In this document: one piece after another, positions 5,943 to 19,873 of the stretch
Position numbering within the stretch: position 1 is the first letter of the stretch
Layout: each line of letters starts with the position of its first letter
Source: a virus
Reading direction: 5' to 3' (one strand)
IMG/VR virus record: IMGVR_UViG_3300035698_012825
Coordinates: 1-31,859 of that record
DNA length: 31,859 bases
The notes under the pieces: model-generated
Database searches by the model: none
The model's input: only the letters and a program-made list of their open reading frames with translations
What the model was told of the DNA's origin: nothing
Position numbers and translations under genes: made by a program

Positions 5943-6602
5943 ATGACAGGGACGCCATCCATTCTAGCGATCGACGGCGGCACGACGACCGGCTGGGCGC
6001 TTTGGTATCCTGGGCTAGAAAAGCCTCGGGCTGGAACAATCAAGATGCCGGATACGCAGGATATGGGCATTTGGGGCGATGCCTTTGTTGAATGGTGCGT
6101 CCCGTTCATGGAGTTGAGCGGGGTTAATCACGTACAGATAGAGGCCCCGATTATTGCCCTGCACCGGTCTGAGGGTGGCGCGGTAAAGGCCAATATGAAC
6201 GAGGTCCGCAAACTCCTGTCGATAGTCTCGTTTGCCCAGTACGCGGCTGTATTGCATGGAGCCACGCACGGCCTGACCCCGCGCGGCACGGCTTCAAAGC
6301 ACTTTGGGGGAAAGGGGAATGGCCCGCGCCGTGAGTTGAAGGCCGCTTGTTTCGTCGCCGCGCAGCACAAGGGCTGGAAAGTGACCAGCCAGGACGTTGC
6401 GGACGCGCTGGCGGTCTTAGATCAGTACACCTGGGCTCATAAGGTCTCTGTGCCTTGGGATAATAGGCCGCTTCCAGGGCCATTGTTCACGGCGGCGGCA
6501 CATGGGACGCGAATAGATAGGGACAACAAGCGAGCGGCGAGCGCATTGACGAATAGCGCCCTTTCATTTGACCGGCAGACTTTCCGAGGCGAGGGGAAAT
6601 AA
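5943..6602 (+). CDS. RuvC-like Holliday-junction resolvase / RNase H-fold endonuclease
   Basis: 219 residues. The RNase H-fold acidic residues are in RuvC-like order: D11 in LAIDGGTTTGWAL, E67 in VQIEAPI, and D151 or D154 in SQDVADALAVLDQY. The first motif is the RuvC DxGxxxxG type. The segment NEVRKLLSIVSFAQY matches the helix that follows the glutamate in RuvC-like proteins. The enzyme would cleave four-way or branched DNA made during recombination and replication, clearing concatemers before packaging. The gene starts three bases after the previous stop and overlaps the next by one base (TAATG). It is longer than RuvC (about 170) owing to a C-terminal extension after residue 165 of unknown role. 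Confidence 0.8.
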   Translation: MTGTPSILAIDGGTTTGWALWYPGLEKPRAGTIKMPDTQDMGIWGDAFVEWCVPFMELSGVNHVQIEAPIIALHRSEGGAVKANMNEVRKLLSIVSFAQYAAVLHGATHGLTPRGTASKHFGGKGNGPRRELKAACFVAAQHKGWKVTSQDVADALAVLDQYTWAHKVSVPWDNRPLPGPLFTAAAHGTRIDRDNKRAASALTNSALSFDRQTFRGEGK

Positions 6603-7357
6603 TGCCGCGAAAGTTATCCACAAACAGCATGTCGTCTAGCGGTGTTAATGACCGTTCTATTTGGGACAAATGGTACCCGCGAAATTGGCAAAGTGACCGC
6701 GGAGTGCGTCGGTGTAGTGGGGGTGCTAGGGGCTTATGGATTGAAATCATTAACTTAATGATCCAATCGCCTAAGCGCGGTTTCTTACTCGATTTCACAC
6801 AAACACCCGCGAAAGCGTACACGCCGGAAAACCTATCGAAGGACGTTGAGTTACCTGTGGATGAAGTCGTTAAGTGGCTGGCGGAACTAAAGGAAAACGG
6901 TGTGTATTCTGTGGATAAGTATGGCCGGATATACTGCCGCCGAATAGTGAGGGAACATGAAAAGGCACGAATCGGTAAAATTAACGGAAAGTTGGGGGGT
7001 AATCCGTCCCTTATAGATCAATCACTTAGCGACAAAGGGTTAACCCACCCCTTAACCCCCCGTCCAACCCTTAAAAGAAAGAAGAAAGAAGCTATAAAAG
7101 AAAGAAGGGGGAAAAGTCTTTTTGAAGGGGATTTGGGCAGCAAGTCTAAACCTGCACAGTCTCGATCCGGATCCCCATGGACCTTGCAGCAGAAACGAGA
7201 GTTCGCTCATAAAAAAATCGCAGACGCTTTGGGTGGCGACGAAGATGCATGGTTGATGGTCATGCGAGCAGCCGATGGAGACCAGACAGCAACACGAATT
7301 TGCAAAGCCAAAGCCAAGGAAATCAGCGTCACTTGGTACAGAGGAACCGGCAAGTAA
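6602..7357 (+). CDS. Phage replication protein with winged-helix-like N-terminal domain
   Basis: 251 residues. The N-terminal region has WYPRNWQSDRGVRRCSGGARGLWIEIINLM, then TPENLSKDVELPVDEVVKWLAELKENGVYSV. This fits the winged-helix primosomal/DnaT-O-like replication proteins of phages, in which a 'screen' helix and a helix-turn-helix are followed by a short beta-hairpin ending in IYCRRIVREHE. A lysine-rich linker (about residues 155-175) separates this from a C-terminal helical part, where helicase-loader contact would be expected. It is preceded by the resolvase gene and contains origin-like repeats inside its own coding sequence, as in lambda O. The exact family and the helicase partner are not visible. 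Confidence 0.6.
   Translation: MPRKLSTNSMSSSGVNDRSIWDKWYPRNWQSDRGVRRCSGGARGLWIEIINLMIQSPKRGFLLDFTQTPAKAYTPENLSKDVELPVDEVVKWLAELKENGVYSVDKYGRIYCRRIVREHEKARIGKINGKLGGNPSLIDQSLSDKGLTHPLTPRPTLKRKKKEAIKERRGKSLFEGDLGSKSKPAQSRSGSPWTLQQKREFAHKKIADALGGDEDAWLMVMRAADGDQTATRICKAKAKEISVTWYRGTGK
7037..7107. other. Candidate replication origin inside the replication gene
   Basis: A 10-bp palindrome GGGTTAACCC (7037-7046) is followed by CCCTTAA words at 7049-7055 and 7068-7074. Next comes a purine-rich tract with two 12-bp direct repeats AAAAGAAAGAAG (7073-7084 and 7096-7107, 23 bases apart). The same TTAAGGG word recurs in opposite orientation at 7374-7380, just past the gene. Iterons next to an easily melted purine-rich tract inside an initiator gene are the layout of lambda-type origins. 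No function has been tested. Confidence 0.4.
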
Positions 7358-7454
7358 GCGTTGGGGGAAAGGTTTAAGGGGGGAACTAATTACGTTAAGT
7401 CGAGGCAGATTCACTTGTTGGACAGCTTTAGTTTTACAGAAAAGGACGGAATTC

Positions 7455-7568
7455 ATGGATTTCTTGGGATATGACGCGGGCTCATTTGCGGCCGGGCTGG
7501 CATTGGGCGTAGCGTTTTCAATCGCTGTTGTTTTAACCTGGTTTTCTTTTGGAGGGACTTCAACGTGA
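7455..7568 (+). CDS. Tiny one-pass membrane protein (37 residues)
   Basis: Starts MDFLGYDAGSFAAGLALGV and contains one hydrophobic segment (about residues 12-31: AAGLALGVAFSIAVVLTWF) with a short polar end. AAGGA lies nine bases before the ATG. It overlaps the following GTG start as GTGA, so the two small membrane proteins are probably made together. The size and layout resemble small phage membrane effectors, but the expected lysis partners are not next to it. Confidence 0.55.
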   Translation: MDFLGYDAGSFAAGLALGVAFSIAVVLTWFSFGGTST

Positions 7569-7762
7569 ACTTAAACACCACTGAAATGGTAATATTGTTA
7601 GCTTTTATGCTGTTTATTTTTATTCTTGTCGGCTACGTGGTGGTGCTTGAGAGGCACAAAGTCACCAACCGGCGCGCGGCGTATCAGTCCTGTATCGAAC
7701 TGCCATCGGCAGACCCTCTGGCTTGCGGGATTTCCTCGGGCATGTCCCGTATCGGGAATTAA
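7565..7762 (+). CDS. Small one-pass membrane protein (65 residues)
   Basis: GTG start overlapping the previous stop (GTGA) and preceded by GGAGGG. Begins MNLNTTEMVILLAFMLFIFI and has one strong membrane helix (about residues 8-29) followed by a positively charged segment (ERHKVTNRR) and a soluble tail with two cysteines. An N-out/C-in arrangement is likely by the positive-inside rule. It might form a pair with the 37-residue protein before it, for example in membrane targeting or host exclusion. It does not have the two-TM layout of a class II holin. Confidence 0.6.
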   Translation: MNLNTTEMVILLAFMLFIFILVGYVVVLERHKVTNRRAAYQSCIELPSADPLACGISSGMSRIGN

Positions 7763-7769
7763 TTAGACA

Positions 7770-8099
7770 ATGAGAATCGCGCTGTATGACGGCGACGGCG
7801 AGAAGGCCTTGGCGACCGTGGACTTCTCCGACGATCACCTCAAAACCCCTGCGCCGTGGCGCGTACGTGTCGAGGGCGTTATGCCGCAGACGGTGGTTCT
7901 ACTGCTGCAGGCGTCCCGCGTAACGCTCCCGGCCGCAGACGGGCGTATCGTCCGAACGTGGGTGGCTACGCCTTACAACGAGTTGACAGCCCGCCGCCTC
8001 ACTCAGATATTTGCTGGGGATGAAATTGATGGTGTTCCGCCCCAGCATCGGCCAAGGTTTACGGAAGTCGCCCTAGAACTGTTGAAATCGAAGGGATAA
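7770..8099 (+). CDS. Hypothetical protein (109 residues)
   Basis: Begins MRIALYDGDGEKALATVDF. The first 80 residues alternate short beta-like segments (WRVRVEGVM, QTVVLLLQASRVTLPA, RIVRTWVATPYNEL); the C-terminus is a helical segment with HRPRFTEVALELLKSKG. No catalytic motif or Cys cluster is visible. The gene follows the membrane-protein pair by seven bases and precedes the next gene by four. Function unknown; the even spacing suggests a single rightward early operon. Confidence 0.65.
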   Translation: MRIALYDGDGEKALATVDFSDDHLKTPAPWRVRVEGVMPQTVVLLLQASRVTLPAADGRIVRTWVATPYNELTARRLTQIFAGDEIDGVPPQHRPRFTEVALELLKSKG

Positions 8100-8103
8100 G
8101 ATC

Positions 8104-8481
8104 GTGCACAAGAAGCGCAAAGCCGAGCCAAAAGAACTTACCGAGGCTGAAATTATTGTGAAGATGGACGGCCTCCTGGTTGAAGCGCATGACCTCGCCG
8201 AAAAGATCTCGTCAGAAAGACCCAATCTGTTGAGGCTATCGCATGAGATCTGCGCCGCGACCACATACAGAGGCCGGACAACGGCGGCTGAGTTCAAGGC
8301 TGGCGGCGAATTGTGCCTGGCGCTCAAGGCCGAGTATCAGCCGATCTTCGACAACGTGGTGAGAATGGACCGTAAGCGGAAGGCAAATTTCGCCCACGCC
8401 AGGGATCTCAAGGAATCCCTTGGCCGTATCAAGCTGCGCCCGCCGAAGATCGAACCGCTTATTGTGGCGCCAGGGCATTAG
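8104..8481 (+). CDS. Hypothetical helical protein (125 residues)
   Basis: GTG start four bases after the previous stop, with GGGA in the stop region. Starts MHKKRKAEPKELTEAEIIVK, with long charged helices throughout, including a segment HEICAATTYRGRTTAAEFKAGG and AHARDLKESLGRIKLRPPK. The basic N- and C-termini could contact nucleic acid, but no known domain is recognised. It ends five bases before the next start. Confidence 0.6.
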   Translation: MHKKRKAEPKELTEAEIIVKMDGLLVEAHDLAEKISSERPNLLRLSHEICAATTYRGRTTAAEFKAGGELCLALKAEYQPIFDNVVRMDRKRKANFAHARDLKESLGRIKLRPPKIEPLIVAPGH

Positions 8482-8485
8482 GTCC

Positions 8486-8761
8486 GTGACCCAGGCTGAC
8501 ATCCAGGCGCGCTACGATCTGGGGCAGGCCGTCGCCGATGATATCCGCTACTGGACGATACGCGGCGAGTTGGCCAGCGGGCGGCGGCGGTATCACACCG
8601 CCATACTCAGCTGCGCCAATTACGAGGCTCTGGTGCATTACCTGGACATAACCGAGGATGATGTGAACGTGGTAAAATACAACGATGGCCAGGAGTTCCG
8701 CCTGTTTCATGGCGTCGAGTTGCATCCCTTCGCCGCGAGTGGCTGGAACCTGCTGATATGA
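8486..8761 (+). CDS. Hypothetical protein (91 residues)
   Basis: Start taken as GTG at 8486, five bases after the previous stop. An ATG 22 codons upstream would overlap the previous gene by more than 60 bases and reads as Arg-rich shadow. The peptide contains QARYDLGQAVADDIRYW, HTAILSCANYEALVHYLD, then EDDVNVVKYNDGQEFRLFHG. The middle part looks like an alpha/beta fold. The stop overlaps the next ATG (ATGA). Function not recognised. Confidence 0.55.
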   Translation: MTQADIQARYDLGQAVADDIRYWTIRGELASGRRRYHTAILSCANYEALVHYLDITEDDVNVVKYNDGQEFRLFHGVELHPFAASGWNLLI

Positions 8762-8850
8762 TTGCCGCCCTCGCCATTGCCGGCCTTGTCGTCGGCCTAG
8801 TCTGGTCGCTGGCCGATCTCAAAGAACGGATGAAAGGGCCGCGATATTGA
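8758..8850 (+). CDS. Micro-gene: 30-residue one-pass membrane peptide
   Basis: The peptide begins MIAALAIAGLVVGLVWSLAD and ends with a basic stretch (LKERMKGPRY). One hydrophobic helix of about 17 residues is followed by positive charges. Its ATG overlaps the previous stop (ATGA) and its stop overlaps the next TTG start. The exact fit between two genes argues for a real gene. Function unknown. Confidence 0.5.
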   Translation: MIAALAIAGLVVGLVWSLADLKERMKGPRY

Positions 8851-9236
8851 AGATAATCAACGGTTTCCCACCCAATTACCGCGCGCTCAACGCCCGATTC
8901 AACATCAGGGGCAAGCCTGTATTCATCACCTACGGCGAAATGGTCTATGTCACCAAGCCAGGCGTGAAGCTACAGCCCCAGGATCTCGCCCATGAGGCCG
9001 TCCACTCTGCCCGGCAATGCGCCATGGGCGTGAACGATTGGTGGGCGCTGTACCTCAAAGACAGCCAGTTCCGCTTAGACGAGGAGGTTCTGGGCCATCG
9101 CGCCGAGGTCCGCGCGCTGAAGGACAAGCAGTTGGCCACGCCGGAGCATATCAAACTCATTGCCCAAAGGCTGTCCTCGGACCTATATGGATCTATGGTC
9201 ACGTTCGAGCGGGCCTTGAAGTTGATTGGGGGGTAG
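8847..9236 (+). CDS. HExxH-motif protein, putative small zinc metallopeptidase
   Basis: 129 residues from a TTG that overlaps the previous stop (TTGA). The motif HEAVH is at residues 49-53 (LAHEAVHSARQ), followed about 25-35 residues later by a helix with DEEVLGHRAEVRAL, where E79/E80 or H84/E87 could supply a third metal ligand. An N-terminal strand pair (KPVFITYGEMVYVT) precedes the motif, as in minimal zincin folds. Phages often encode such small proteins, whose roles are not known; protein cleavage or a non-catalytic metal site are both possible. A role in head maturation is less likely from its early position. Confidence 0.6.
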   Translation: MKIINGFPPNYRALNARFNIRGKPVFITYGEMVYVTKPGVKLQPQDLAHEAVHSARQCAMGVNDWWALYLKDSQFRLDEEVLGHRAEVRALKDKQLATPEHIKLIAQRLSSDLYGSMVTFERALKLIGG

Positions 9237-9237
9237 T

Positions 9238-9303
9238 GTGGCCAAGCGCGAGACCGAAAAACGCTACGACCGCCACGGGAGCCGTAACGGGATGTGCATA
9301 TGA
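9238..9303 (+). CDS. Possible micro-ORF (21 residues, basic)
   Basis: GTG start two bases after the previous stop; the peptide is VAKRETEKRYDRHGSRNG plus three residues. Its stop overlaps the ATG of the next gene (ATGA). It fills the gap exactly but has no further support and may serve only to couple translation. Confidence 0.3.
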   Translation: MAKRETEKRYDRHGSRNGMCI

Positions 9304-9545
9304 CCGGCGAGTATGTCGATGGCCTGGTTCCCCTGCGTATCCGGAACAGCGAGCCCAAAGCCTGCGCCGTATGTGGTCAGGTCGCTGCCGCCAATATCCT
9401 GCTGATCTGTCAGTCGCCCGCTTGCCCCGGCCATGAAGCCTTGAAGGGTAACGGCCCTATGATCGAATCCTTGGAACTGCCCGATGGTGTGCCGGTGGAT
9501 GCGAAGTCGATCTTCGACCACCTGCGCGATAAGGTGCGGAAATGA
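9300..9545 (+). CDS. Small zinc-ribbon-like protein
   Basis: 81 residues from ATG 9300 (a GTG two codons earlier is an alternative). A CAVCG pair at about residues 23-27 and a CQSPAC pair at about 37-42 form a likely zinc knuckle. The C-terminus (SLELPDGVPVDAKSIFDHLRDK) looks like a short strand plus helix. It overlaps the WbqC-like gene by four bases (ATGA), so it may be co-regulated with the sugar cassette. Function unknown. Confidence 0.6.
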   Translation: MTGEYVDGLVPLRIRNSEPKACAVCGQVAAANILLICQSPACPGHEALKGNGPMIESLELPDGVPVDAKSIFDHLRDKVRK

Positions 9546-10267
9546 GCGTTACCATCGCCATCGTTCAGCCAAACTACCTGCCGTGGCTTGGGTACTTCGA
9601 CCAGATGCGGCGGGCTGATCTGTTTGTTTTCTATGACGATGAACAGTTTGTCCGCAAAAGCTGGGCCAGCCGTAACCGTGTACGTGGCCACGATGGCCAG
9701 CCGACCTGGCTATCTGTCGCCGTATCTCATGGTGCTGGCCAGTCCGACGCGCGATACCTTCCCAGTTTCCCTATGCTGAACAAGGCTCCGATAGATCAAT
9801 ACTGGGCAAAGCGCACTGGTCACGCCCAGAAGATGCGCCAATGGTATCGGGACGCCAGGTACACCGCCGAGATCCTTGACGAGTTCGAGCAGGTCGCCCA
9901 CCAGCCCTACGAAAATCTTGCGGATCTGAACATAGCGGTGATCGAATGGATGGCCGCGCGCCTCGGTATTCATACGCCGACCACCCGTTCCTCGCTGTTG
10001 GATATATCGCTAGATCTGGACACGACCGCGAGACCACTCGCTATATGTCGCCACTTCGGAGCCAATAATTTCTTGTGCGGACCAACGGCGCGAGCCTATA
10101 TCCTTGAGAGTGAGTTCACGCGAGTAGGGGTAGAAATCGAATGGCACGATTTCATCAACCACCATCCGACCTATACGCAACACCGTGAGCCGTTCATGCC
10201 GAACCTTTCGGCAATGGATTACCTTCTCTGCAATGGGGCAGGCTGGCCTACACAGGCCGATAACTAA
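9542..10267 (+). CDS. WbqC-like family protein
   Basis: 241 residues. The N-terminus (VQPNYLPWLGYFDQMRRAD at residues 8-26, then FVFYDDEQFVRKSWASRNRV) is the signature of the WbqC-like family (Pfam PF08889). The rest of the family pattern is also present: a mid region with YPRW-like helices and a C-terminal IEWHDFINHHPTYTQHRE...MDYLLCNG segment. Family members lie in O-antigen and other surface-glycan clusters and in clusters with aminotransferases; their biochemistry is not settled, although a transferase role is suspected. Here it opens the sugar cassette. Start ATG overlaps the previous stop. The length is as usual for the family. Confidence 0.85.
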   Translation: MSVTIAIVQPNYLPWLGYFDQMRRADLFVFYDDEQFVRKSWASRNRVRGHDGQPTWLSVAVSHGAGQSDARYLPSFPMLNKAPIDQYWAKRTGHAQKMRQWYRDARYTAEILDEFEQVAHQPYENLADLNIAVIEWMAARLGIHTPTTRSSLLDISLDLDTTARPLAICRHFGANNFLCGPTARAYILESEFTRVGVEIEWHDFINHHPTYTQHREPFMPNLSAMDYLLCNGAGWPTQADN

Positions 10268-10284
10268 AACAGGGGAACTACCAA

Positions 10285-10944
10285 ATGGCAAAGCTACGCC
10301 CGACTGAGCCAGATCCAGCGGTTTTGGACATCTACCGCGAACGCCTGGACCGCTACGGCGCGACAAAAGAGGCAATGGGCTGGTATGACAACAAGCTGGC
10401 GCTCCGATACAAGGCGCTAACCCGTCACATACCCCTCGCCGCCCGCGTTCAAGTTCTGGACTTCGGATGTGGTGTGGGCTTCCTGCGCGATTGGCTCAAG
10501 AAGAACCGCCCTGCCGCTGTCTATGTCGGGATAGATCCGTGCAAGGAAATGATCCAGCAGGCCAACAGCCGGACCCGCGAGGCGCTATTCTCCCACCTGG
10601 ACGACCTGGACGAACTTGGCACCCAGTTCGACCATATCGTTTGCTGCGGGATATTCACCCAAGTAGGCGACCGGGGAAAGCGCGAGCAGGAGAACCATGT
10701 TGTCGAGACCCTGTTCAAGCTGTGCGAGTCTGCCCGCGTTTCAGTCAGTGTCGATTTCCTAGACGCCTCGGTATGCGATGCGCCGGAGGAAGGGCTGTAT
10801 TACGCCGATCCCTCAAGCGTTGTGCGGTTTAGACGCCGCGCCACCATCGACCGATCATACCTGCCCTTTGAGTTCTGCGCCCACTTCTTCACCGCCTCCG
10901 AGATCGACCACATGACCAACCGATACATGCAGGTGGTTCTATGA
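10285..10944 (+). CDS. Class I SAM-dependent methyltransferase
   Basis: 219 residues, ATG preceded by AGGGGA. Motif I is VLDFGCGVG at residues 57-65, with the acidic residue ending strand 2 at D84 (YVGIDPCKEM). Motif post-I and a DHIVCCGIF-type motif IV (about 115-122) follow in the right order. The N-terminal 50 residues form a helical cap (PAVLDIYRERLDRYGATKEA, WYDNKLALRY) resembling sugar or small-molecule methyltransferases. The acceptor cannot be read from the sequence, but its place between the WbqC-like and FAD genes suggests a sugar or sugar nucleotide. Confidence 0.8.
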   Translation: MAKLRPTEPDPAVLDIYRERLDRYGATKEAMGWYDNKLALRYKALTRHIPLAARVQVLDFGCGVGFLRDWLKKNRPAAVYVGIDPCKEMIQQANSRTREALFSHLDDLDELGTQFDHIVCCGIFTQVGDRGKREQENHVVETLFKLCESARVSVSVDFLDASVCDAPEEGLYYADPSSVVRFRRRATIDRSYLPFEFCAHFFTASEIDHMTNRYMQVVL

Positions 10945-11156
10945 GCCGGTTCATGCCCAAGTGGGGCGATTTCAAGAACGTGAACGTGACGGCTGGGCTT
11001 GTCGTTGTCGGTGATGCGCTCTGCGTTCAGCTTGTCGTCGCCGCGAATACGCCAGACGGGCCTCGGGTTAAGTCCACCCAGCACGTAAGCCTCACGCCGT
11101 TCTTCGATAAAGCAGTTCCCCCGGCCGGGGAAGAACCGCCGCCAGCCAAGGAGTAG
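10941..11156 (+). CDS. Small hypothetical protein in sugar cassette (71 residues)
   Basis: ATG overlapping the previous stop (ATGA). Begins MSRFMPKWGDFKNVNVTAGL, a beta-rich core (VVVGDALCVQLVVAANT) and a Pro/Glu-rich C-terminus. No enzyme motif is visible. Its placement inside a run of sugar enzymes makes a subunit or chaperone role possible but unsupported. Confidence 0.6.
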   Translation: MSRFMPKWGDFKNVNVTAGLVVVGDALCVQLVVAANTPDGPRVKSTQHVSLTPFFDKAVPPAGEEPPPAKE

Positions 11157-11160
11157 CGCC

Positions 11161-12288
11161 ATGATTACTGTTGTCGGCACCGGCCCAGCCGGGATTACCG
11201 CCGCCTACCTCCTGGCCAAAGCGGGCGAGAAGGTTCAGTTGATCGACGCCGCCGAGAAGCCAGGCGGACTGTGGCGCGGGTTTGATTACGATGTGAAAGA
11301 CAAGACCGATCCGATGGGGCGACGGCCTGTCCACTTCGAGACCGGGATGCACTGGTACACCGATTGCGGCATACCCGAGATAGATACCTGGTGGCGCGAC
11401 CTTCTGCCGAACGCCCAAACCGAGATCCCCCGCGAGATCGCAGGCTGCTACTGGACTGGCCAGCTTCAGACCAACAGCCCATATCCGGACCTACGCAATG
11501 GCGGCACGTTTGAAAACCGGCCAATCCTTGAGAAGATCTGGGGCGTTCCACTCGATACCCTGGCGCCAAGCTGCGAGCGTATCGTCAAGATCGACCGCGT
11601 TGTTGGTTATGGCGAGGAAAACACCCGCGAAGCCTACGATCGAGATCCTCGCCTGCGCTCTAAGTTCGCCTGGCCAGATCAACGTAGACTCCCCACTGAG
11701 TATCAGTCCGGCAGATCCAGCATGTACCCGCACGGCGGGCTTGGCGTCCTGGTTCTGGCTGCTTTGACCGAGTTATCGAACATGGGGGTAGAGATCAAAC
11801 TGGGCAGACCGCCCGCGGACACGGCAAGGGATTCCGCTATGTTCTGGGCGGCTGGCGTCCGAGGTGCGGCGAAGTGGACGAGCATACCCTGGCCCGGCGA
11901 TATGACGCCGCCGAGGGAATTGACCGTTATCAACGCCCTTTCCGCCACACCGCCCGCCCACGATCTCCACTACGCCTTCAGCTATGAAAGCGGTTCACAA
12001 CTGTTCCGCGTGACCTGGTATCGCAACTTCACTCAATATCCCGCAGACCGGCGCGTGACCTACGAGTTTCTAGGCGATGTCCCGACCGGGCTCATTACCG
12101 GAGCGGTTGGCGTTCACAACCTCGGCCCGGTCCTGCCGGTCCCGACGATAACAAACGAGGCCAGACTTGAGGAATTGCGCTACCAAATCGGGCGCACACC
12201 GAACTTTAAGATGATTGGGTCCGGCGCAACCAAGGGGCTGTTCTTTCAGCCAGAGGTGCTGCGCCATGTTTGGGATGCCTGCCAGTGA
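11161..12288 (+). CDS. FAD/NAD(P)-binding oxidoreductase, UDP-galactopyranose mutase-like
   Basis: 375 residues, four bases after the previous gene. The dinucleotide-binding motif GTGPAG is at residues 6-11 with D29 ending strand 2 (VQLIDAAEKPGG), and GGLW at 35-38 is the second FAD motif seen in amine-oxidase and UDP-galactopyranose-mutase-like proteins. A C-terminal MIGSGATKGLFFQPEVLRHVW segment takes the place of the FAD-binding C-terminal loop. Likely roles are ring contraction or oxidation of a nucleotide sugar. It is similar in length to UGM (about 380). The substrate cannot be read from the sequence; the assignment to UGM rather than another flavin oxidoreductase is an inference. Confidence 0.7.
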   Translation: MITVVGTGPAGITAAYLLAKAGEKVQLIDAAEKPGGLWRGFDYDVKDKTDPMGRRPVHFETGMHWYTDCGIPEIDTWWRDLLPNAQTEIPREIAGCYWTGQLQTNSPYPDLRNGGTFENRPILEKIWGVPLDTLAPSCERIVKIDRVVGYGEENTREAYDRDPRLRSKFAWPDQRRLPTEYQSGRSSMYPHGGLGVLVLAALTELSNMGVEIKLGRPPADTARDSAMFWAAGVRGAAKWTSIPWPGDMTPPRELTVINALSATPPAHDLHYAFSYESGSQLFRVTWYRNFTQYPADRRVTYEFLGDVPTGLITGAVGVHNLGPVLPVPTITNEARLEELRYQIGRTPNFKMIGSGATKGLFFQPEVLRHVWDACQ

Positions 12289-13373
12289 TCCCCTTTCACA
12301 AACCGCAGATGTCTAACCTTGAGTTCGATGCCGTGAGGGGTTCGATGGAAGGCGGCTGGCTCACCACCGGCCCGAAGGTCACGGAGTTTGAACAAGCCTT
12401 CGCGCGGGCCTGCGGACATCAGGATACATCGCCCGTTTATGCCGTGGCTGTCTCGTCGGCTACTGCCGGCCTGCACCTGGCGCTGCTCGCTGACAATGGC
12501 ATTAGCGAACATTGCCGTGTCGCCGTGCCTACCTGGACTTTCTCGGCTTCGGCGGCGGCTATCGAAATGGCGGGCTGTACGCCTGTGATCTGTGACATTG
12601 ACCCATACACGCTATTCCTCACGGACCAGTCCTGGGAAAAACATCAGAATTCACCCCCATACCTGGCTGGCTTCATGCCCGTTCATATGGCTGGCCTTCG
12701 CTGTAAGTCGCCGTATGGCAACAGCCGGTCTGTTATCGAGGACGCGGCCCATATGCTGCCCTACGATCCAGGCCAAGGGCGCACGGCCGTATTCAGCTTC
12801 TACGCCACCAAGCCCATTGCCTGCGGCGAGGGTGGAATGGTGGTCACGCGGGACGAGTATATCGCTGACCGTGTGCGCGGCCTGCGTTGCCACGGCTTCG
12901 GGGACGAGGTGTTTGACCGCCACCAAACCGGCCACCGCACCCATGAGGTTGTCCGCGCCGGGTTCAAATACAACATGCCCGACCTTATGGCGGCTATCGG
13001 CCTGGTTCAGCTTAATAGATCCGAGGACATGCTGGCCCAGCGCAGGTACCTGGCCTACCGATACCGCGAACACCTGCGCGGCTGTATGCTGCCGCCGTGT
13101 GGCAATGAGTCTGAGCATCTATTCATAATCCGAGTTCCTGCCGCCCTACCGTTCATCGAACGGATGCGGAAAGACTACGGGATCGCCTGCGGTCTCCACT
13201 ACAAGCCGCTGCACCAGCACAAATACTGGCGCGAGAAGTACAGCCTCTTGGCCAGGGACTTCCCGAACGCCGAGGCTGCGAGCAAGAACGCCGTATCCCT
13301 GCCGATCTACGCAGGCTTGAGCGAGGCCGACCAGGACAGGATCATCAAAGCCGTGGAGGAAATCCTCTGTTGA
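12285..13373 (+). CDS. PLP-dependent sugar aminotransferase (DegT/DnrJ/EryC1/StrS family)
   Basis: 362 residues. Starting at the GTG at 12285 (GTGA overlap) gives MIPFHKPQMSNLEFDAV; the family begins with this 'IPfxkPxxxxxE' pattern. PLP-site features are the phosphate loop VSSATAGLHLALL, IEDAAH with the conserved Asp near 153, and the Schiff-base lysine near 176 in FSFYATKPIACGEGGM. The C-terminal HLFIIRVP and HYKPLHQHKYW segments are also family-typical. It transfers an amino group, normally from glutamate, to a keto nucleotide sugar, which fits the dehydratase-like gene downstream. A TTG five codons upstream is an alternative start but lacks a better Shine-Dalgarno. Confidence 0.9.
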   Translation: MIPFHKPQMSNLEFDAVRGSMEGGWLTTGPKVTEFEQAFARACGHQDTSPVYAVAVSSATAGLHLALLADNGISEHCRVAVPTWTFSASAAAIEMAGCTPVICDIDPYTLFLTDQSWEKHQNSPPYLAGFMPVHMAGLRCKSPYGNSRSVIEDAAHMLPYDPGQGRTAVFSFYATKPIACGEGGMVVTRDEYIADRVRGLRCHGFGDEVFDRHQTGHRTHEVVRAGFKYNMPDLMAAIGLVQLNRSEDMLAQRRYLAYRYREHLRGCMLPPCGNESEHLFIIRVPAALPFIERMRKDYGIACGLHYKPLHQHKYWREKYSLLARDFPNAEAASKNAVSLPIYAGLSEADQDRIIKAVEEILC

Positions 13374-14446
13374 TACGCGACCTTCCATTCGTATGGCGTC
13401 TAACACCCAGCGACGACTGCCCGCGCCCCGACAATATCCCCGCGCGCATGGACTTCGTATTCGATTGGGATGCAGACCTGGGCTTGCTGAAGCAGAAGCA
13501 GACCCCCGAACTTATGGCCGCGCTCGATGCCGTGTACGCGGCTGGATCAGAGAACCTGGGCGCGACCGAGGAATACGGCGAGGACTTCTTCCGCTTTGTT
13601 GCTTCCATTTCCTACGGGCGCTTTGCAGACAAGCCGAAGGCAACGCGATCATCACTTGAAATTAGTCCAGGCACCGGCTGGCTTTCTGAGAAGCTGGGCG
13701 ACCTTCCGGTTCAAACCTTTACCCACACCAACGCCGAGGATGGTCCGTTCCCTCCCGGCGATAGTTTCTATGCCTTCGGTGATTACAGGAAGATGGACGG
13801 ATTCGATATGGTTATCGCCCATTACGTCCTTGAGCATGTACCTAGCCCTGTCGAGTTCCTGCGCGCTATGGGAGACAAGCTAGGTGATGACGGGATCGCT
13901 TTCGGCGCGGTTCCCGACTGTTCGCTTGAGGTAAGGCTGGGCGATGTGTCGATGGCGACAAGCCAGCACCTCAGTTATTTCACGGAGCAAAGCCTGACCA
14001 AATGCCTTTTGGTTGCTGGGTTCAAGTATGGGTCTGTTTTTCATGTTTATGGCTCGCTGTTCTTTTGGGCGAGCAGGGACGCTGGGCGTTACGGCGATGA
14101 TCTAGCCAGCTTACATAATACCGATTCCTACGGGCGTTTCTTGGCCAATGCTGTCTTGAATATGGAACGTGTAGAGAAGATCGCCGTGGCTGTCGGCATT
14201 CCCGCCGCCGTCTGCCCTATGCGCGCCTTCCCATATAATCAGGATAACTTCTCCGTGATGTACGACGATGGCATGGCCGGGAAGTATCTCGATGGCTACG
14301 CCCAGCAAATCCGTCCGCTTATGGAAATAGATGCAGACCGGGTGGCGCTTGTTTTCTCATGGACCTATGGGCAAATGATTGAGGATAAGCTGCGTAGGCA
14401 AGGTGTTCGCCGGATCATAACTCTGAGGGAAATGCTCGATGTTTGA
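13370..14446 (+). CDS. SAM-dependent methyltransferase, possibly sugar C-methyltransferase
   Basis: 358 residues from TTG (TTGA overlap) with GGAGGA nine bases upstream. The SAM motif I is a variant EISPGTGWLS (residues 97-106), and HYVLEHVPSP (about 151-160) with a following AMGDKLGDDGIAFGAVPD is the motif IV-V region of type-11/12 methyltransferases. The 150-residue C-terminal region (after residue 200) resembles the extra domain in deoxysugar C-methyltransferases, but the usual N-terminal zinc-binding CxxC part is absent. Substrate by context is a nucleotide sugar. Only the methyltransferase fold is firm. Confidence 0.7.
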   Translation: MIRDLPFVWRLTPSDDCPRPDNIPARMDFVFDWDADLGLLKQKQTPELMAALDAVYAAGSENLGATEEYGEDFFRFVASISYGRFADKPKATRSSLEISPGTGWLSEKLGDLPVQTFTHTNAEDGPFPPGDSFYAFGDYRKMDGFDMVIAHYVLEHVPSPVEFLRAMGDKLGDDGIAFGAVPDCSLEVRLGDVSMATSQHLSYFTEQSLTKCLLVAGFKYGSVFHVYGSLFFWASRDAGRYGDDLASLHNTDSYGRFLANAVLNMERVEKIAVAVGIPAAVCPMRAFPYNQDNFSVMYDDGMAGKYLDGYAQQIRPLMEIDADRVALVFSWTYGQMIEDKLRRQGVRRIITLREMLDV

Positions 14447-15110
14447 TATTTGCACCTACGACCTGTCGAAACTCTTTTGGCAGCGCCTCATACGCCTCCA
14501 CGCCTGGGATCTCGATTTCGTCGGTAAGCTGCTGCGCGCTGGCCGCGAGTGTGAGACTCACCGGCCAGGCATGGCAAATCAGACCGGATCTATTCCGCTA
14601 TCGACCGCCCTGTACTTGACCCTGCTTGCAAAGCACATGGGCGCGCGTAACGTGGTGGAAGTCGGGACGTTCATCGGCAAGTCCACCATGGCGCTTGCTG
14701 CTGGGATGCAGACCGGGACCATATCGACCTGCGATGCCACCAACGATGCGCCCGCCTTCGGGGAAATGCCTGTGAAGATTAACTTCAATCCCAAGACGAC
14801 ATCGACCGCCATGCTGCGGAATCTTCTCAAAACGCCCGGCCACGAAGCGGATCTATTCTTCTTCGATGGTCGCCTGCCGCCCGAGGATGCCGAACTGGTC
14901 AAAGCCTTGTCCGGCCCGCGCACCGTGTACGCCTTCGATGATTACGAGGGGATCGAGAAGGGGGTTTCCAACGCCGCCATGCTGCGCCACAAGGGGCTCG
15001 CCGTGATCTACCCGCCCGAACAGGAGTTGCTGCACCCTTACGGCGTTGCTGATAGATCCACGCTGGGGCTGCTTGTTCCCGTCCACTTGTTCCAGTTCAC
15101 CGCGCAATGA
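14439..15110 (+). CDS. SAM-dependent methyltransferase, O-methyltransferase-like
   Basis: 223 residues; overlaps the previous gene by eight bases. Motif I NVVEVGTFIGKST is at 71-83, the acidic loop is at STCDA (D99), and LFFFDGRLPPEDAELV is the Asp-containing motif IV that in O-methyltransferases binds a metal and substrate. VYAFDDYEGIEKGV is a second acidic block. The order fits a Rossmann-type catechol/sugar O-methyltransferase-like protein. It is one of three methyltransferases in this cassette. The acceptor is unknown. Confidence 0.7.
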   Translation: MFDICTYDLSKLFWQRLIRLHAWDLDFVGKLLRAGRECETHRPGMANQTGSIPLSTALYLTLLAKHMGARNVVEVGTFIGKSTMALAAGMQTGTISTCDATNDAPAFGEMPVKINFNPKTTSTAMLRNLLKTPGHEADLFFFDGRLPPEDAELVKALSGPRTVYAFDDYEGIEKGVSNAAMLRHKGLAVIYPPEQELLHPYGVADRSTLGLLVPVHLFQFTAQ

Positions 15111-16072
15111 GGCTGCTTGTCACCGGAGGGGCGGGGTTTATCGGCTCCAACTTTGTACGCACCGCGCTTGATACTTTCGATGTAACCGTTCTGGATTGCC
15201 TCACCTACGCAGGCGCTATCGAGAACCTGCCGACCGACGCGGAGAACTTGGAGTTTGTTTATGGAAGCGTCTGCGATGTGGCCCTGGTTGATGAATATGT
15301 GGCTAAAGCCGATTACGTTATCCACTTCGCCGCCGAAACCCACGTTGCCCGGTCAATCGTCAACAACCGCGTGTTCTTCGAGACAGACGTTATCGGCACC
15401 CAGACCATTGCCCAAGCCTGCCTAAAACACGACAAGCCCCTGCTGCACTTCTCGACATCTGAGGTGTACGGAACCGCCATAGATCCTGCGGGCTCCATGG
15501 ACGAGGATCACCCGCTTAATCCCATGAGCCCCTACGCCGCCGCCAAGTGTGGCGCTGACAGATTGGTGTATTCGTACTTCAAGACCTACGGCCTGCGCGC
15601 TGTGATCGCCCGTAGCTTCAACGTGTACGGTCCCAGGCAGCACCCAGAGAAACTTATCCCGAGGTTTATCACCAACGCCCTGCGCCAAAGGCCCATGACA
15701 ATCCACGGCGACGGCGAGGCCAAGCGGGACTTCGTTCACGTTTCCGATGTCTGCCGGGCTATCACAATGCTCATGGCCAGTAACAGTCACTACGGGGAGG
15801 TGTTCAATATCGGCACCGGAAATGCTTATTCCGTGAATGAAATTAGTGCCAGGGTCCGCAAGGTTATGGACCCCGCCCTACCATCGCAACACACCAAGGA
15901 CCGGCCGGGCCAGGTCTCCGTGCATCGCTGCGATTATATAAAAATCTATCAGGCACTCGGATGGTTTCCTGAGATCTCTTTTTATACCGGACTTGCTGAG
16001 ACAGCGACCTGGTACTCAAACAATCCCCAATGGCAGAGGCAACTGCACATGGCCGAGGATGCAGAGCGGTGA
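15107..16072 (+). CDS. Extended SDR nucleotide-sugar dehydratase/epimerase
   Basis: 321 residues. The NAD motif GGAGFIG is at 7-13, D30 follows strand 2, and AAETHVARSI is at 75-84. The active-site strand TSEVYG is at 117-122 and Y143-x3-K147 lies in SPYAAAK. The FNVYGPRQHPEKLIPRFI and YGEVFNIGTGN segments are typical of dTDP-glucose-4,6-dehydratase-like enzymes. RmlB has TDEVYG; the Asp-to-Ser change here (glutamate kept) is seen in LegB-like amino-sugar dehydratases and in decarboxylases/epimerases. I therefore call 4,6-dehydratase or a related epimerase/decarboxylase and not RmlB itself. Its keto product would suit the aminotransferase upstream. Confidence 0.85.
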   Translation: MRLLVTGGAGFIGSNFVRTALDTFDVTVLDCLTYAGAIENLPTDAENLEFVYGSVCDVALVDEYVAKADYVIHFAAETHVARSIVNNRVFFETDVIGTQTIAQACLKHDKPLLHFSTSEVYGTAIDPAGSMDEDHPLNPMSPYAAAKCGADRLVYSYFKTYGLRAVIARSFNVYGPRQHPEKLIPRFITNALRQRPMTIHGDGEAKRDFVHVSDVCRAITMLMASNSHYGEVFNIGTGNAYSVNEISARVRKVMDPALPSQHTKDRPGQVSVHRCDYIKIYQALGWFPEISFYTGLAETATWYSNNPQWQRQLHMAEDAER

Positions 16073-17313
16073 GCGATACCGAAGCCAATAACGCCTTGCT
16101 GCTTGAGGCGCAGACTTGCGGGATGGCCAAACAGCCGGACACGCCCGAACAGTTCCAGTTCTACTGGCAGACCATGGCCCCGCTTATGACGATGGCCGGC
16201 GCGAGCGTTGCGGAGCCCTGGCGCCGTAAAAAGACGCGCGGCCAAACTACGGTTGGCTTCTTCATGCCCACCGGAACCATGCTGGCCCATTCCGTCAACC
16301 TGCTGACCTACCTAAACGCCAACTCCAATTCGCCGGGCTCCGAGATCGAGCCTGTGATTTTCATAGGCGGGAAAGACGGATCTCCGGAGTTCAAGGAAGC
16401 CTATGCCCTGCACACCGTTGTCTATTGCGGCAAGGAGTCTCACCTTGCGACCTGGAAAGAAGTTCGCCGCGTTGCCCGCTTAAAGAATATCGCCGCTATG
16501 GTGTTTGTATCCGTGGTGCAGGGTATGGCCTTCGCCGTTGCCATGGGGGTCGCGCCCAAAACAATCTGGTGGGCGCATAAGTGGCACGGTCTCCAGGACA
16601 TCGGCCTTGATGGCTACCTGGACGCTTGCCACCCGTTCCGCGAAGCGGCCCTTATCGGGAACTACACCTGGCAATGCACCTACACCGCCCTGCCGGATCT
16701 ATTCGAGCCCAAACACGCCGCCGAGGCGGGCGAAATTCGGCAAGGAATGGATGTAGGCGTAGTATTTGGCTGGATGGGCCGGAGCGAGAAGATAACCGTT
16801 CAGTACCTCGATTGCGTTGTGCAGATCCTCCGGCGCGTTCCCGATTCCATTTACGTTTACACCGGGCGCGAGGAAATCTCCGAGATCGAGCATCTATTCC
16901 AGCAAGCCGGGCTGGGTGATCGCATAGCCTTCCTGGGCTGGGTTGATACACGGCTATGGGCGCAGGTGATCGACGTTTACCTGGATACATTCCCATTTCA
17001 GTCCGGCCATTGCGCCTATGAGGCGATGGCGGCAAGCAAGCCTGTCGTCTGGCTGCATGATTATCGAACCGCTGAGGAACAATCCGCGAGTGGGCTTATC
17101 ATTGATAACTGGGACAACCGCGCAGACGACCTGTTCGGGTATGAGCCATGGGCGAGATCTCCGGAGGCTTACGTGAGCCTGGCGGTGATACTGGCCACGG
17201 TGAATTACGATCATGGCTCAAGGTATCGGTCATTCCTCGAAGCCTACATGATGGATGCGCCGCGCATGGCCAGAAGCGTCAATGCGGGGATTCTTGAGGT
17301 TCTTAATGGTTGA
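16069..17313 (+). CDS. Glycosyltransferase, GT-B fold
   Basis: 414 residues from GTG 16069 (GTGA overlap, GAGGA upstream); an ATG 13 codons earlier reads into the previous gene. N-terminal half (about 60-240): a Rossmann-like acceptor domain starting TTVGFFMPTG. C-terminal half (about 240-414): donor domain with FGWMGRSEKIT, VYTGREEISEIEHLFQQAG, RIAFLGWVD and an LDTFPF...AYEAMAASKPVVWL segment. This last block is the donor-site pattern of GT41/GT4-like glycosyltransferases. No membrane helix is visible, so a soluble or peripheral enzyme is likely. It is the last gene of the cassette and touches the terminase. Acceptor (virion protein, DNA or host glycan) cannot be told. Confidence 0.75.
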   Translation: MSDTEANNALLLEAQTCGMAKQPDTPEQFQFYWQTMAPLMTMAGASVAEPWRRKKTRGQTTVGFFMPTGTMLAHSVNLLTYLNANSNSPGSEIEPVIFIGGKDGSPEFKEAYALHTVVYCGKESHLATWKEVRRVARLKNIAAMVFVSVVQGMAFAVAMGVAPKTIWWAHKWHGLQDIGLDGYLDACHPFREAALIGNYTWQCTYTALPDLFEPKHAAEAGEIRQGMDVGVVFGWMGRSEKITVQYLDCVVQILRRVPDSIYVYTGREEISEIEHLFQQAGLGDRIAFLGWVDTRLWAQVIDVYLDTFPFQSGHCAYEAMAASKPVVWLHDYRTAEEQSASGLIIDNWDNRADDLFGYEPWARSPEAYVSLAVILATVNYDHGSRYRSFLEAYMMDAPRMARSVNAGILEVLNG

Positions 17314-17981
17314 GTGTATATTCTGGCGCCATGAGCAAGGCCATAAAGCCACCGCGCAAGAAAGACGAGGACGGACTGACGCCGATAGAACGGCGCTTGG
17401 CCCTGGAGTACATGGTTCACCTCAATGCCGCCGCCGCCTCCCGCGCCTGCTCCAAAACTGCGATGGTTGGGTGGCAAGTGTTGCAGCGCCCGCATGTTCA
17501 AGCCTTCATCCACAAAGAAAACCTCAAGCGCGCAGATCGACTGAACATCACCGCGGATTCAATCAAAGAGGAAATGGCCAAGATCGCCTTTGCCAACATG
17601 GGCGACTTCATCACGATAGACGAGAACGGCGCGCTGTCCTGGGACTTCTCGCGCATGACCAGGGCTCAAATGGCCGCTATCGCGGAGATCTCCGTGGAAC
17701 CGGGCAGGGATGGCCAGCCCAAGATTATGAAATTCAAGCTATTGGACAAGAAGGGCGCTCTGGCGGACCTGGCAAAAACCCTTGGCCTGTTCAATACCGT
17801 GCGCCCCGCGAAAGACGCTGCGTTGACTGGCGCGCCTCGGCACAACAGGGGAATGACTGAAGATGAAATCGACCAGCGACTCGATGACATACACAGATCA
17901 ATTAAACGAGGCCGAGAGCCTAATGCTGGAGAAGGAAAGGCTGTTAGCGGCAAAGACGTTTCAAAGCTACGCCCCAACTAA
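17310..17981 (+). CDS. terS: Terminase small subunit
   Basis: 223 residues from TTG 17310 (overlapping the previous stop and preceded by GAGG); ATG at 17331 is an alternative giving seven fewer residues. The N-terminal region has the Terminase_2 pattern: LTPIERRLALEYMVHLNAAAASRACSKTA and LQRPHVQAFI. It is followed by a segment FANMGDFITIDENGALSWDFSRMTR that is typical of phage small subunits. It binds the packaging start site and activates the large subunit next to it. The C-terminal 60 residues are charged. The end overlaps the start of the large subunit by up to 119 bases. Confidence 0.85.
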   Translation: MSVYSGAMSKAIKPPRKKDEDGLTPIERRLALEYMVHLNAAAASRACSKTAMVGWQVLQRPHVQAFIHKENLKRADRLNITADSIKEEMAKIAFANMGDFITIDENGALSWDFSRMTRAQMAAIAEISVEPGRDGQPKIMKFKLLDKKGALADLAKTLGLFNTVRPAKDAALTGAPRHNRGMTEDEIDQRLDDIHRSIKRGREPNAGEGKAVSGKDVSKLRPN

Positions 17982-19455
17982 CCTGCATATCCGCACCGAG
18001 TCCGAGGGCGTTAAACCGTTTCGCCTTAACTCGGTCCAACTCTATATTCACGAAAAGCTAGAAGAACAACTCGAACGCCTCGGTTATGTCCGCGCCCTAA
18101 TCCTCAAGGGCCGCAAGCAAGGCTGTTCAACCTACGTTGCTGGCCGCTTCTACTATAAGACGACCCACAACAAGGGTATCCAGACTACGATCATGGCGCA
18201 TGAGCAAAAGGCGTCTGAAACCCTGTTCGGTATCGTGGATCTGTTCCACGCCGAAGATCCCCACGCCATACGCACCGCCACCGCCAACTCGAAAGAACTG
18301 AACTTCGCAGACATCTACTCGGGGTATTCGGTTCTTACAGCTGGCAGCAAGGCGACCGGGCGTTCATCGACACCGCAGCTACTCCATGGCTCTGAGTTTG
18401 CCTTCTGGCCCAATGCGGCCGGGCATATGGCCGGGATTATCCAGGCGGTTCCGGAAGCGCCAGGCACGGAGATTATTCTGGAATCTACCGCGTTCGGTAT
18501 GGGCAATGCCTTCCATACGATGTGGCAGACAGCCGAGTCCGGTAATAGCGATTACATCCCCATATTTATTCCCTGGTTCTGGACAAGCCACTATCAGCGC
18601 CCGGTTCCCAATGACTTCGTGCTGTCCGAGGAAGAAGAACAATACAAGGCGATGTATAGCCTCACGAACGCGCAAATGGCCTGGAAGCGAAACAAGGAAA
18701 GCATCCCAGACGGCAAAAACATATTTCGCCAAGAGTATCCAGCCACCGCCGCCGAAGCCTTCGAGCAAGCGGAAACAGATAGCTACATCCCCGGCAAACT
18801 CATTGCCCCGGCCCGAAAGAACCAGCGTACAGGCGTCGGCCCGTTGATTATCGGCGCAGACCCAGCGCGCTACGGCAAAGACCGCTTCTCGATTATCCGC
18901 CGCCAGGGTCGCCGCGCGTTCAAGCTGGAAAGCAAACTCAAGGTGAACGTGGTTGTCGGCGCGAACTGGATCAAAGGCGTGATCGACCGAGAGAAGCCAT
19001 CCCGAGTATTCATAGATCTAGGCGGCGTTGGCGCCGGGACGTTCGATATTCTTCAGTCCTGGGGCGAGCCGTACATGAGCATCGTCAAGGGCGTGAACTT
19101 TGGTAGCCCGCCGATGGAAGAAGAAGAACACCTGCCCAATGGGGATATTCGCCCCGGCCCGCTGAACCGCAGATCCGAAATGTGGAAGCGGTCTAAGGAA
19201 TGGCTCGAACAGGAAGGTGGCGTAGAAGTCCCAGACCAGGACAGCCTGCAATCCGATGGCTCCGGCCCGAACTACAAATACGATATGAAGCAGCGCCTCC
19301 AACTGGAAAAGAAGGAGGATATGATGAAACGGGGTATCCGAAGCCCCGACGAATGGGACGCCCTGGCCCTGACTTTCGCAGAGCCGGTTCACGACATCCA
19401 AACCAGCAAGCCCCTCGTTAAGAAGCGCGGGCGCGATGAAACCGTGGGGGTTTAG
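17863..19455 (+). CDS. terL: Terminase large subunit (packaging ATPase/nuclease)
   Basis: 530 residues. The P-loop is a K-G-R-K-Q-G-C-S-T variant at 82-90, like the 'KARQQGxST' of this terminase group. HGSEFAFW (175-182) holds the Walker B glutamate. The nuclease domain has D333 in GADPARYGKD, D385 in VFIDLGG and a C-terminal DEWDALALTFAEP. This order is the ATPase-then-RNase H-like nuclease order of phage large terminases. It packages DNA into the prohead and cuts it. ATG 17863 has AGGGGA ten bases before it but gives a 119-base overlap with terS; ATG 17884 or 17923 would be shorter. The start is thus uncertain. Confidence 0.9.
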   Translation: MKSTSDSMTYTDQLNEAESLMLEKERLLAAKTFQSYAPTNLHIRTESEGVKPFRLNSVQLYIHEKLEEQLERLGYVRALILKGRKQGCSTYVAGRFYYKTTHNKGIQTTIMAHEQKASETLFGIVDLFHAEDPHAIRTATANSKELNFADIYSGYSVLTAGSKATGRSSTPQLLHGSEFAFWPNAAGHMAGIIQAVPEAPGTEIILESTAFGMGNAFHTMWQTAESGNSDYIPIFIPWFWTSHYQRPVPNDFVLSEEEEQYKAMYSLTNAQMAWKRNKESIPDGKNIFRQEYPATAAEAFEQAETDSYIPGKLIAPARKNQRTGVGPLIIGADPARYGKDRFSIIRRQGRRAFKLESKLKVNVVVGANWIKGVIDREKPSRVFIDLGGVGAGTFDILQSWGEPYMSIVKGVNFGSPPMEEEEHLPNGDIRPGPLNRRSEMWKRSKEWLEQEGGVEVPDQDSLQSDGSGPNYKYDMKQRLQLEKKEDMMKRGIRSPDEWDALALTFAEPVHDIQTSKPLVKKRGRDETVGV

Positions 19456-19456
19456 C

Positions 19457-19873
19457 ATGAAAGATCCAGTCGAAAAGCTGGCTTCGTACTTACGCACAAC
19501 GGCGCAACACGGCGGCGGGGTCTCCGGCAATACCAGGTCGCTCGCCATGTTCCTCGGTCTATCCATGCGGCAGGTCTCCGACGCCCGCGAGTATCTGGTG
19601 GCAACGGGTAGGCTGATACGCCGCGAGAAGATCTATGTCTCAATAGATGGATTCAAGTTCGGAGCCGATGGCCAGCGCCATGAAGATCCAGACCGGCTAT
19701 TCATGTACCTGCGTAAGCATTTCCCGGCCGTCTATGATGCGAGAGTGGGCGACGAGCCTAACCGTGTCGCCCGCGGAATCCCCAGCGAGGTTATGATTGG
19801 CTCTGTCCGGACGGGCATAGGCTTCGCCGCCGCGCTTGTCCTGTGCGCGCCAGGCTCAAGGATCTCGATATGA
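19457..19873 (+). CDS. Winged-helix-like protein, late copy of the paralogous family
   Basis: 138 residues from ATG 19457 (an ATG seven codons earlier lies inside the terminase gene). Residues 5-65 look like a winged helix: EKLASYLRTT, a clear helix-turn-helix SLAMFLGLSMRQVSDAREYL, then RLIRREKIYVSIDGFKF. The C-terminal half (HFPAVYDARVGDEP, EVMIGSV, then a hydrophobic helix) aligns with 3270-3707. Its location right after the large terminase gene is unusual for a regulator; it may control late transcription or be part of the packaging complex. Function not known. Confidence 0.75.
   Translation: MKDPVEKLASYLRTTAQHGGGVSGNTRSLAMFLGLSMRQVSDAREYLVATGRLIRREKIYVSIDGFKFGADGQRHEDPDRLFMYLRKHFPAVYDARVGDEPNRVARGIPSEVMIGSVRTGIGFAAALVLCAPGSRISI

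Follow-up and report, generated by a model that had tools for sequence, protein, structure and literature searches.

A nine-gene run upstream of the terminase genes

The DNA analyzed here is the IMG/VR virus record IMGVR_UViG_3300035698_012825, and the entire linear record of 31,859 bp is referred to as the window. It belongs to a small, uncultivated podovirus-like phage and carries, on the plus strand from 9542 to 17313, a cassette of nine co-directional open reading frames (ORFs) with zero internal stops, which begins at the ATG of a WbqC-like gene (9542) and ends with the final base of a glycosyltransferase stop codon (17313). Most junctions are start/stop overlaps of 4–8 bp. Assigned to families with Pfam, NCBIfam and PHROGs, the ORFs encode, in order, a WbqC-like protein, an S-adenosylmethionine (SAM) methyltransferase (MT1), a 71-aa protein, a flavoprotein, a DegT aminotransferase, two further methyltransferases (MT2 and MT3), an extended short-chain dehydrogenase/reductase (SDR) and a GT-B glycosyltransferase. 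Several intact nucleoside diphosphate (NDP)-sugar enzymes and a glycosyltransferase are contiguous here, with phage genes on both sides. A sequence-only reading of the window had delimited this run and named these enzyme classes, with one gene left unassigned; its coordinates proved exact, and the classes were borne out by the family searches.

The same eight enzymes in a second phage

A scan with an SDR alignment recovered the cassette in a 57,892-bp IMG/VR contig, G063 (locus L242 is part of it). All eight enzymes are present there in the same order and slot as in the window, at 33–56% amino acid identity, so that the gene set that the sequence-only reading had proposed to seek in other phages does recur. 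The two phages also share a backbone, with identities of 38% for the small terminase subunit (TerS), 56% for the large subunit (TerL), 66% for the portal and 79% for the major capsid protein. At the DNA level, the window and G063 align only in scattered blocks of 64–81% identity. In every cassette gene the divergence at the three codon positions follows p2<p1<p3, and 55–76% of fourfold-like sites have changed, much like TerL and the portal. Because this pattern holds in each gene while so many fourfold-like sites differ, the cassette proteins are under purifying selection. Most simply, the cassette would have been inherited together with the virion genes. The gene set is intact and maintained by selection, and it is probably a working one, not a remnant or stray cargo; no decayed copies were seen among the relatives searched, in keeping with the earlier expectation of a working cassette.

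The rival view, that the run is chance cargo or headful 'stuffer' DNA without phage function, can point to the absence of the cassette from nearly all relatives. It can also point to the large lipopolysaccharide (LPS)/sugar clusters of T4-like cyanomyoviruses (P-SSM2, S-SSM7 and S-SM2), whose function is unknown and for which the authors left 'stuffer DNA' as a possibility (PMC3037559). However, eight of eight enzymes are intact and collinear in two phages that share 56–79% identity in TerL, portal and capsid proteins, with synonymous sites heavily changed and the proteins conserved. Since neutral filler would decay over such divergence, this explanation is largely refuted, and we regard it as very improbable.

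Independent contigs reproduce the assembly. The junction between the glycosyltransferase and TerS was recovered from another sample (L002; 99.98% over 4,076 bp), and the portal–capsid part of the window was recovered at 99.7% in a further contig (L032), so the assembly is not chimeric in these parts. The portal–capsid part of G063 was likewise recovered at 99.7% in a second sample (L057). Cassette codon usage correlates with that of the structural genes (0.92), and a recent foreign import is not obvious. Across the cassette stretch, promoter- and terminator-like sites were no more frequent than in shuffled sequence.

Enzymes of the cassette

The WbqC-like protein (9542–10267, 241 aa; PF08889, 3.8e-55) is 53% identical in G063. 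A Foldseek search with its AlphaFold2 (AF2) model gave a lead towards cytidylyltransferases, 2b7l (probability 0.91, E 0.056). Assignment as a nucleotidylyltransferase (CTP_transf_like, PF01467) was not supported: a profile comparison with 17 PF01467-type sequences scored no better than an unrelated control. Our literature search found no paper on WbqC function. MT1 (10285–10944, 219 aa) is a class I SAM methyltransferase (Methyltransf_12, 2.1e-10; 33% in G063), and relatives at 27–28% identity lie two genes after WbqC on plasmids of Azospirillum and Peteryoungia. The 71-aa ORF that follows (10941–11156) has no family match in the three collections and is not conserved, two other small genes occupying that place in G063.

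The flavoprotein (11161–12288, 375 aa) matches NAD_binding_8 (7.7e-12) through its N-terminal dinucleotide-binding motif (FAD/NAD) only, yet is 45% identical to its G063 counterpart over the full length. Alignment with known flavoproteins is limited to about the first 80 residues, and identities as UDP-galactopyranose mutase or amine oxidase were set aside for want of a full-length match past the motif. Single-sequence scans of viral contigs, genomes, phages and plasmids returned zero full-length relatives, and a profile built from the two sequences retrieved G063 again and nothing else. The profile also found nothing full-length in 398 Pseudomonadota genomes and 11 others, an empty result obtained there without a positive control. 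Within the data searched, the family has so far been found in these two phages only, as judged by sequence similarity.

The aminotransferase is a DegT/DnrJ/EryC1/StrS (ArnB-like) enzyme dependent on pyridoxal phosphate (PLP) (12285–13373; PF01041, 2.3e-75; 49% in G063). It probably starts at GTG 12285, in a GTGA overlap with the preceding gene, and not at the listed TTG 12270. Its nearest solved relative is ArnB (1mdo, 1.3e-64), and the motif around the PLP lysine is preserved (SFYATKP in the window, SFNATKP in G063), so that both family membership and the conserved ATKP lysine are in place. Its scores lie below the equivalog cut-offs of ArnB (252 vs 631 bits) and PseC (219 vs 423.5 bits). MT2 (13370–14446, 358 aa; Methyltransf_23, 5.3e-14; 39% in G063) and the O-methyltransferase-like MT3 (14439–15110, 223 aa; Methyltransf_3, 3.4e-06; 52% in G063) precede the RmlB-related SDR (15107–16072; GDP_Man_Dehyd, 3.6e-64; 56% in G063). 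The last gene encodes a GT-B glycosyltransferase (16069–17313; Glyco_trans_1_4, 2.6e-06, 28.2 bits vs a cut-off of 27; 51% in G063), which probably starts at GTG 16069, again in a GTGA overlap with the gene before it, instead of the listed ATG 16030. Neither the window nor the 57.9-kb G063 contains a sugar nucleotidyltransferase (PF00483), which makes a host NDP-sugar the likely input, as had been proposed; no thymidylate-synthase-type gene occurs among the Pfam matches either, again as previously noted.

An SDR clade with a changed active site

The SDR reaches 310 bits against the RmlB equivalog TIGR01181, short of the cut-off of 365, and an alignment with DesIV places STSE where RmlB has STDE, the Asp being replaced by Ser. 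Assignment as RmlB, a dTDP-glucose 4,6-dehydratase, is supported neither by the score nor by the active site, which lacks the Asp–Glu pair. STSE is found in the window, in G063 and in their clade, whereas DesIV has STDE, as do 143 of the 161 aligned SDRs. In a tree of these 161 sequences the window falls within a clade of 13 tips (support 0.996) with Ser at the RmlB Asp position, and this clade takes in six of the seven other SDRs that lie next to WbqC genes, those of bacterial WbqC–SDR–aminotransferase triples among them. The association of WbqC adjacency with the clade has a hypergeometric probability of 1.5e-7, a figure that ignores relatedness and similarity-based sampling.

WbqC loci in contigs were sought with a degenerate DNA pattern. 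WbqC, SDR and aminotransferase genes are direct neighbors in Nitrospiraceae, Nitrospira, a betaproteobacterium, a Patescibacteria metagenome-assembled genome and an IMG/VR contig, G062. The bacterial modules resemble the window in that the three core enzymes are adjacent and the SDR is 50–54% identical with the same Ser–Glu motif; they differ in lying in cellular genomes, and nothing related to the flavoprotein, MT2 or MT3 was detected next to them. By sequence, three of the eight cassette enzymes form a module that is also used by bacteria. On plasmids, WbqC genes have DegT, methyltransferase and glycosyltransferase genes as neighbors, and on a Streptomyces plasmid WbqC and DegT are joined by a flavoprotein, UDP-galactopyranose mutase.

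Two contigs carry other combinations. The end of G062 (L158, 14545–19916) encodes a GNAT acetyltransferase, two radical-SAM/SPASM proteins, WbqC, an STSE-type SDR and an aminotransferase, its viral status being unproven. G053 (64.7 kb; L160, 1864–15010) holds a long sugar run with two SDRs, DegT, WbqC, a PIG-L deacetylase, GT8 and GT2. G053, G056 and G062, all bearing WbqC, might be cassettes of other phages, yet evidence that these contigs are viral did not emerge, and they were kept as neighborhood evidence only: none of ten G062 proteins matched a structural PHROG, and the WbqC-bearing contigs gave no Terminase_6C match.

Flanking genes and relatives

Directly downstream of the cassette, on the plus strand, lie TerS (17310–17981; Terminase_2, 4.4e-17; 38% in G063), which overlaps the glycosyltransferase stop through TTGA, and TerL (17863–19455; 56% in G063), which matched 524 phage records, several of them annotated as terminase large subunit. 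An SU10-type portal and adaptor, capsid and tail genes are recognized by homology. The cassette had been placed between replication and packaging genes: the packaging side stands, whereas 'replication' is loose, since a RuvC-like resolvase gene and unknowns precede the cassette and the RecT and RecE-like recombinases lie on the minus strand. Two paralogous proteins of ~145 aa, ~30% identical, are encoded at 3270–3707 (minus strand) and 19436–19873 (plus strand), one amid early genes and the other immediately 3′ of TerL; both match one gene of G063. The record is probably a fragment; G063 measures 57.9 kb. In that contig, 6259–17406 of the reverse complement is a single ORF of 3,715 aa, and a Pfam scan of G063 ORFs, this one among them, listed LPD38 and helicase domains without linking them to a particular ORF.

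Relatives recovered through the portal number in the hundreds, and many of the longest are records of 50–59 kb; named ones are HMO-2011-type podoviruses and others at 24–34% identity. In 79 portal loci no relative of a cassette protein was found at E 1e-3, although many of these loci stop short of the slot. Whole-record searches of relatives found DegT in 0 of 20, the SDR in 0 of 50 and Methyltransf_23 in 0 of 50; positive controls worked, and several records were partial. Lysis genes lie upstream of the terminase in HMO-2011 and Pseudoalteromonas phage vB_Pun_Y3, joined in the former by an accessory methanesulfonate monooxygenase gene, so that accessory genes can sit in this position. Among upstream ORFs of portal relatives, two match TROVE/Ro60-type domains, which are unusual in phages. 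One relative has TerL as a single 812-aa frame (L014, 338–2776) with an insertion of ~250 residues that resembles an intein (starting CLSP, ending VSHNS). In another, the major capsid gene is interrupted (L082, 13090–14643) by ~730 bp; in-frame stops occur there, as does an ORF that includes YLAGVIDSDG, and the interruption resembles an intron that encodes a LAGLIDADG homing endonuclease.

Comparison with known phage sugar systems

Sugar cassettes in phages are already known. The cyanomyovirus clusters, including that of Synechococcus phage ACG-2014f, are likewise multi-gene runs in which SDRs and a DegT aminotransferase accompany glycosyltransferases and a methyltransferase, but they sit in large myovirus genomes (228 kb in ACG-2014f, 252 kb in P-SSM2), where their neighbors are hli03/phoH or tRNAs instead of the terminase. 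The ACG-2014f aminotransferase and SDRs are only 25–30% identical to those of the window, and in the stretch of that genome that was fetched no relative of the window WbqC or flavoprotein was detected. The uncultivated podovirus ct7QV12 (MW202713.1) has annotated glycosyltransferase, methyltransferase and DegT genes immediately upstream of the terminase, overlapping TerL; its DegT is 31% identical to the window aminotransferase and its capsid protein is homologous (28%, 8e-19). Its run is smaller, with one methyltransferase and with nothing seen that resembles the SDR, WbqC or flavoprotein, and its TerL is not recognizably related by tblastn. Because the genes differ, ct7QV12 and the window probably represent independent use of the same slot. 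The RmlABCD (dTDP-rhamnose) cassette of Phapecoctavirus is also a phage-borne set of NDP-sugar genes with an RmlB-related SDR (38%), yet it includes its own thymidylyltransferase, forms a plain-deoxysugar Rml set, and has no aminotransferase, methyltransferase or glycosyltransferase annotated in the run. What distinguishes the window is its gene set, the flavoprotein, the STSE SDR and direct evidence of selection. The claim that such a cassette is not a described pattern is borne out only by half, in view of the published cyanomyovirus clusters (PMC3037559) and the ct7QV12 run at the same slot.

Discussion

As judged by its enzyme families, the cassette likely makes a modified amino sugar. The SDR would turn an NDP-hexose supplied by the host into a 4-keto sugar, by oxidation or dehydration, and the PLP aminotransferase would then add an amino group; WbqC may act within the same module at an unspecified step, the flavoprotein may contribute one redox step, up to three SAM methyltransferases would add methyl groups, and the GT-B enzyme would transfer the completed sugar to an acceptor. 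The data themselves show the gene content, order and intactness, the purifying selection and the bacterial WbqC–SDR–aminotransferase association; from these we infer all of the reactions, together with their order, the identity of the sugar and the acceptor. The product would probably be an unusual methylated amino sugar derived from a host NDP-sugar, perhaps coating the virus or the host surface. The fuller proposition, that the genes work as a glycosylation cassette which selection has retained in a single phage lineage, with a virion protein as the likeliest acceptor, we put at a little under even.

A small sugar-derived metabolite, instead of a glycan building block, would account for three methyltransferases, a relative-less flavoprotein and WbqC, which exceed the needs of a simple amino sugar, and WbqC, DegT and mutase genes are neighbors on the Streptomyces plasmid. 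However, the run has no recognizable gene for a carrier, a synthetase or export, and a diffusible product would presumably gain the phage little, and we consider this unlikely.

For the acceptor, our rough ranking begins with a virion protein, the likeliest single candidate although short of an even chance, because the terminase, portal and capsid genes follow the run without a break and are co-inherited with it. Phage-encoded glycosylation reportedly places glycans on capsid and tail proteins of mycobacteriophages (Freeman 2023, cited in PMC12619734), a precedent for such an acceptor. A host surface glycan comes somewhat behind. On that explanation the sugar would be added to the LPS or exopolysaccharide of the infected cell, blocking superinfection or altering a receptor; the same enzyme families fill bacterial polysaccharide loci, seroconversion by phage glycosyltransferases is an established role (PMC12619734), and in G062 the WbqC–SDR–aminotransferase genes are preceded, a few genes away, by a GtrB-like gene (PHROG 841). 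Yet the family matches of the window and G063 include neither a GtrA/GtrB-type membrane protein nor a flippase or polymerase, and the run leads to packaging and capsid genes, not to early takeover genes; on balance, this explanation is possible but doubtful. A Gtr-type seroconversion cluster in particular is not supported, as the GtrA flippase and GtrB bactoprenol glucosyltransferase are absent from those matches, the window record being probably incomplete. Some other acceptor is slightly less probable again.

DNA, which the sequence-only reading had listed among the acceptors, comes last. Phage glycosyltransferases that act on DNA are on record (Pyle 2024, cited in PMC12619734), and a sugar on phage DNA could act against restriction. 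Among the Pfam matches of the window and the 57.9-kb G063, however, there is no base-hypermodification gene of the thymidylate-synthase, hydroxymethylase, TET/JBP or 7-deazaguanine types, and the glycosyltransferase matches the general GT-B family only, leaving this the least probable acceptor by a wide measure.

Several points weigh against a glycosylation cassette that acts on the virion. It is known from two phages only, both uncultivated contigs, and most relatives lack it, hence it is dispensable for this virion type. A position beside late genes is no proof that the run is expressed late, no acceptor motif came to light, and part of the genome is probably missing, leaving tail fibers and any further sugar genes unseen. 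A reaction cannot be assigned to WbqC or to the flavoprotein: the WbqC model is confident (predicted local distance difference test score, pLDDT, 91.3) but had zero significant fold matches against PDB in Foldseek, and the flavoprotein model (pLDDT 34.6) is too poor to use.

In its most specific and decidedly speculative form, the proposal would be that a compact podovirus lineage makes a dedicated sugar foreign to its host, through an STSE-type SDR/aminotransferase/WbqC module combined with three methyltransferases and a flavoenzyme so far confined to these phages, and that its own glycosyltransferase attaches this sugar to the virion during assembly. For the cyanophage clusters it was left open whether such genes are functional or filler (PMC3037559), and a short, collinear set of eight enzymes under selection makes that question testable. 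The cassette also links WbqC, an uncharacterized family, with an aminotransferase and one particular clade of SDRs, provides in STSE a diagnostic active-site change for that clade, and offers a flavoenzyme family without known close relatives.

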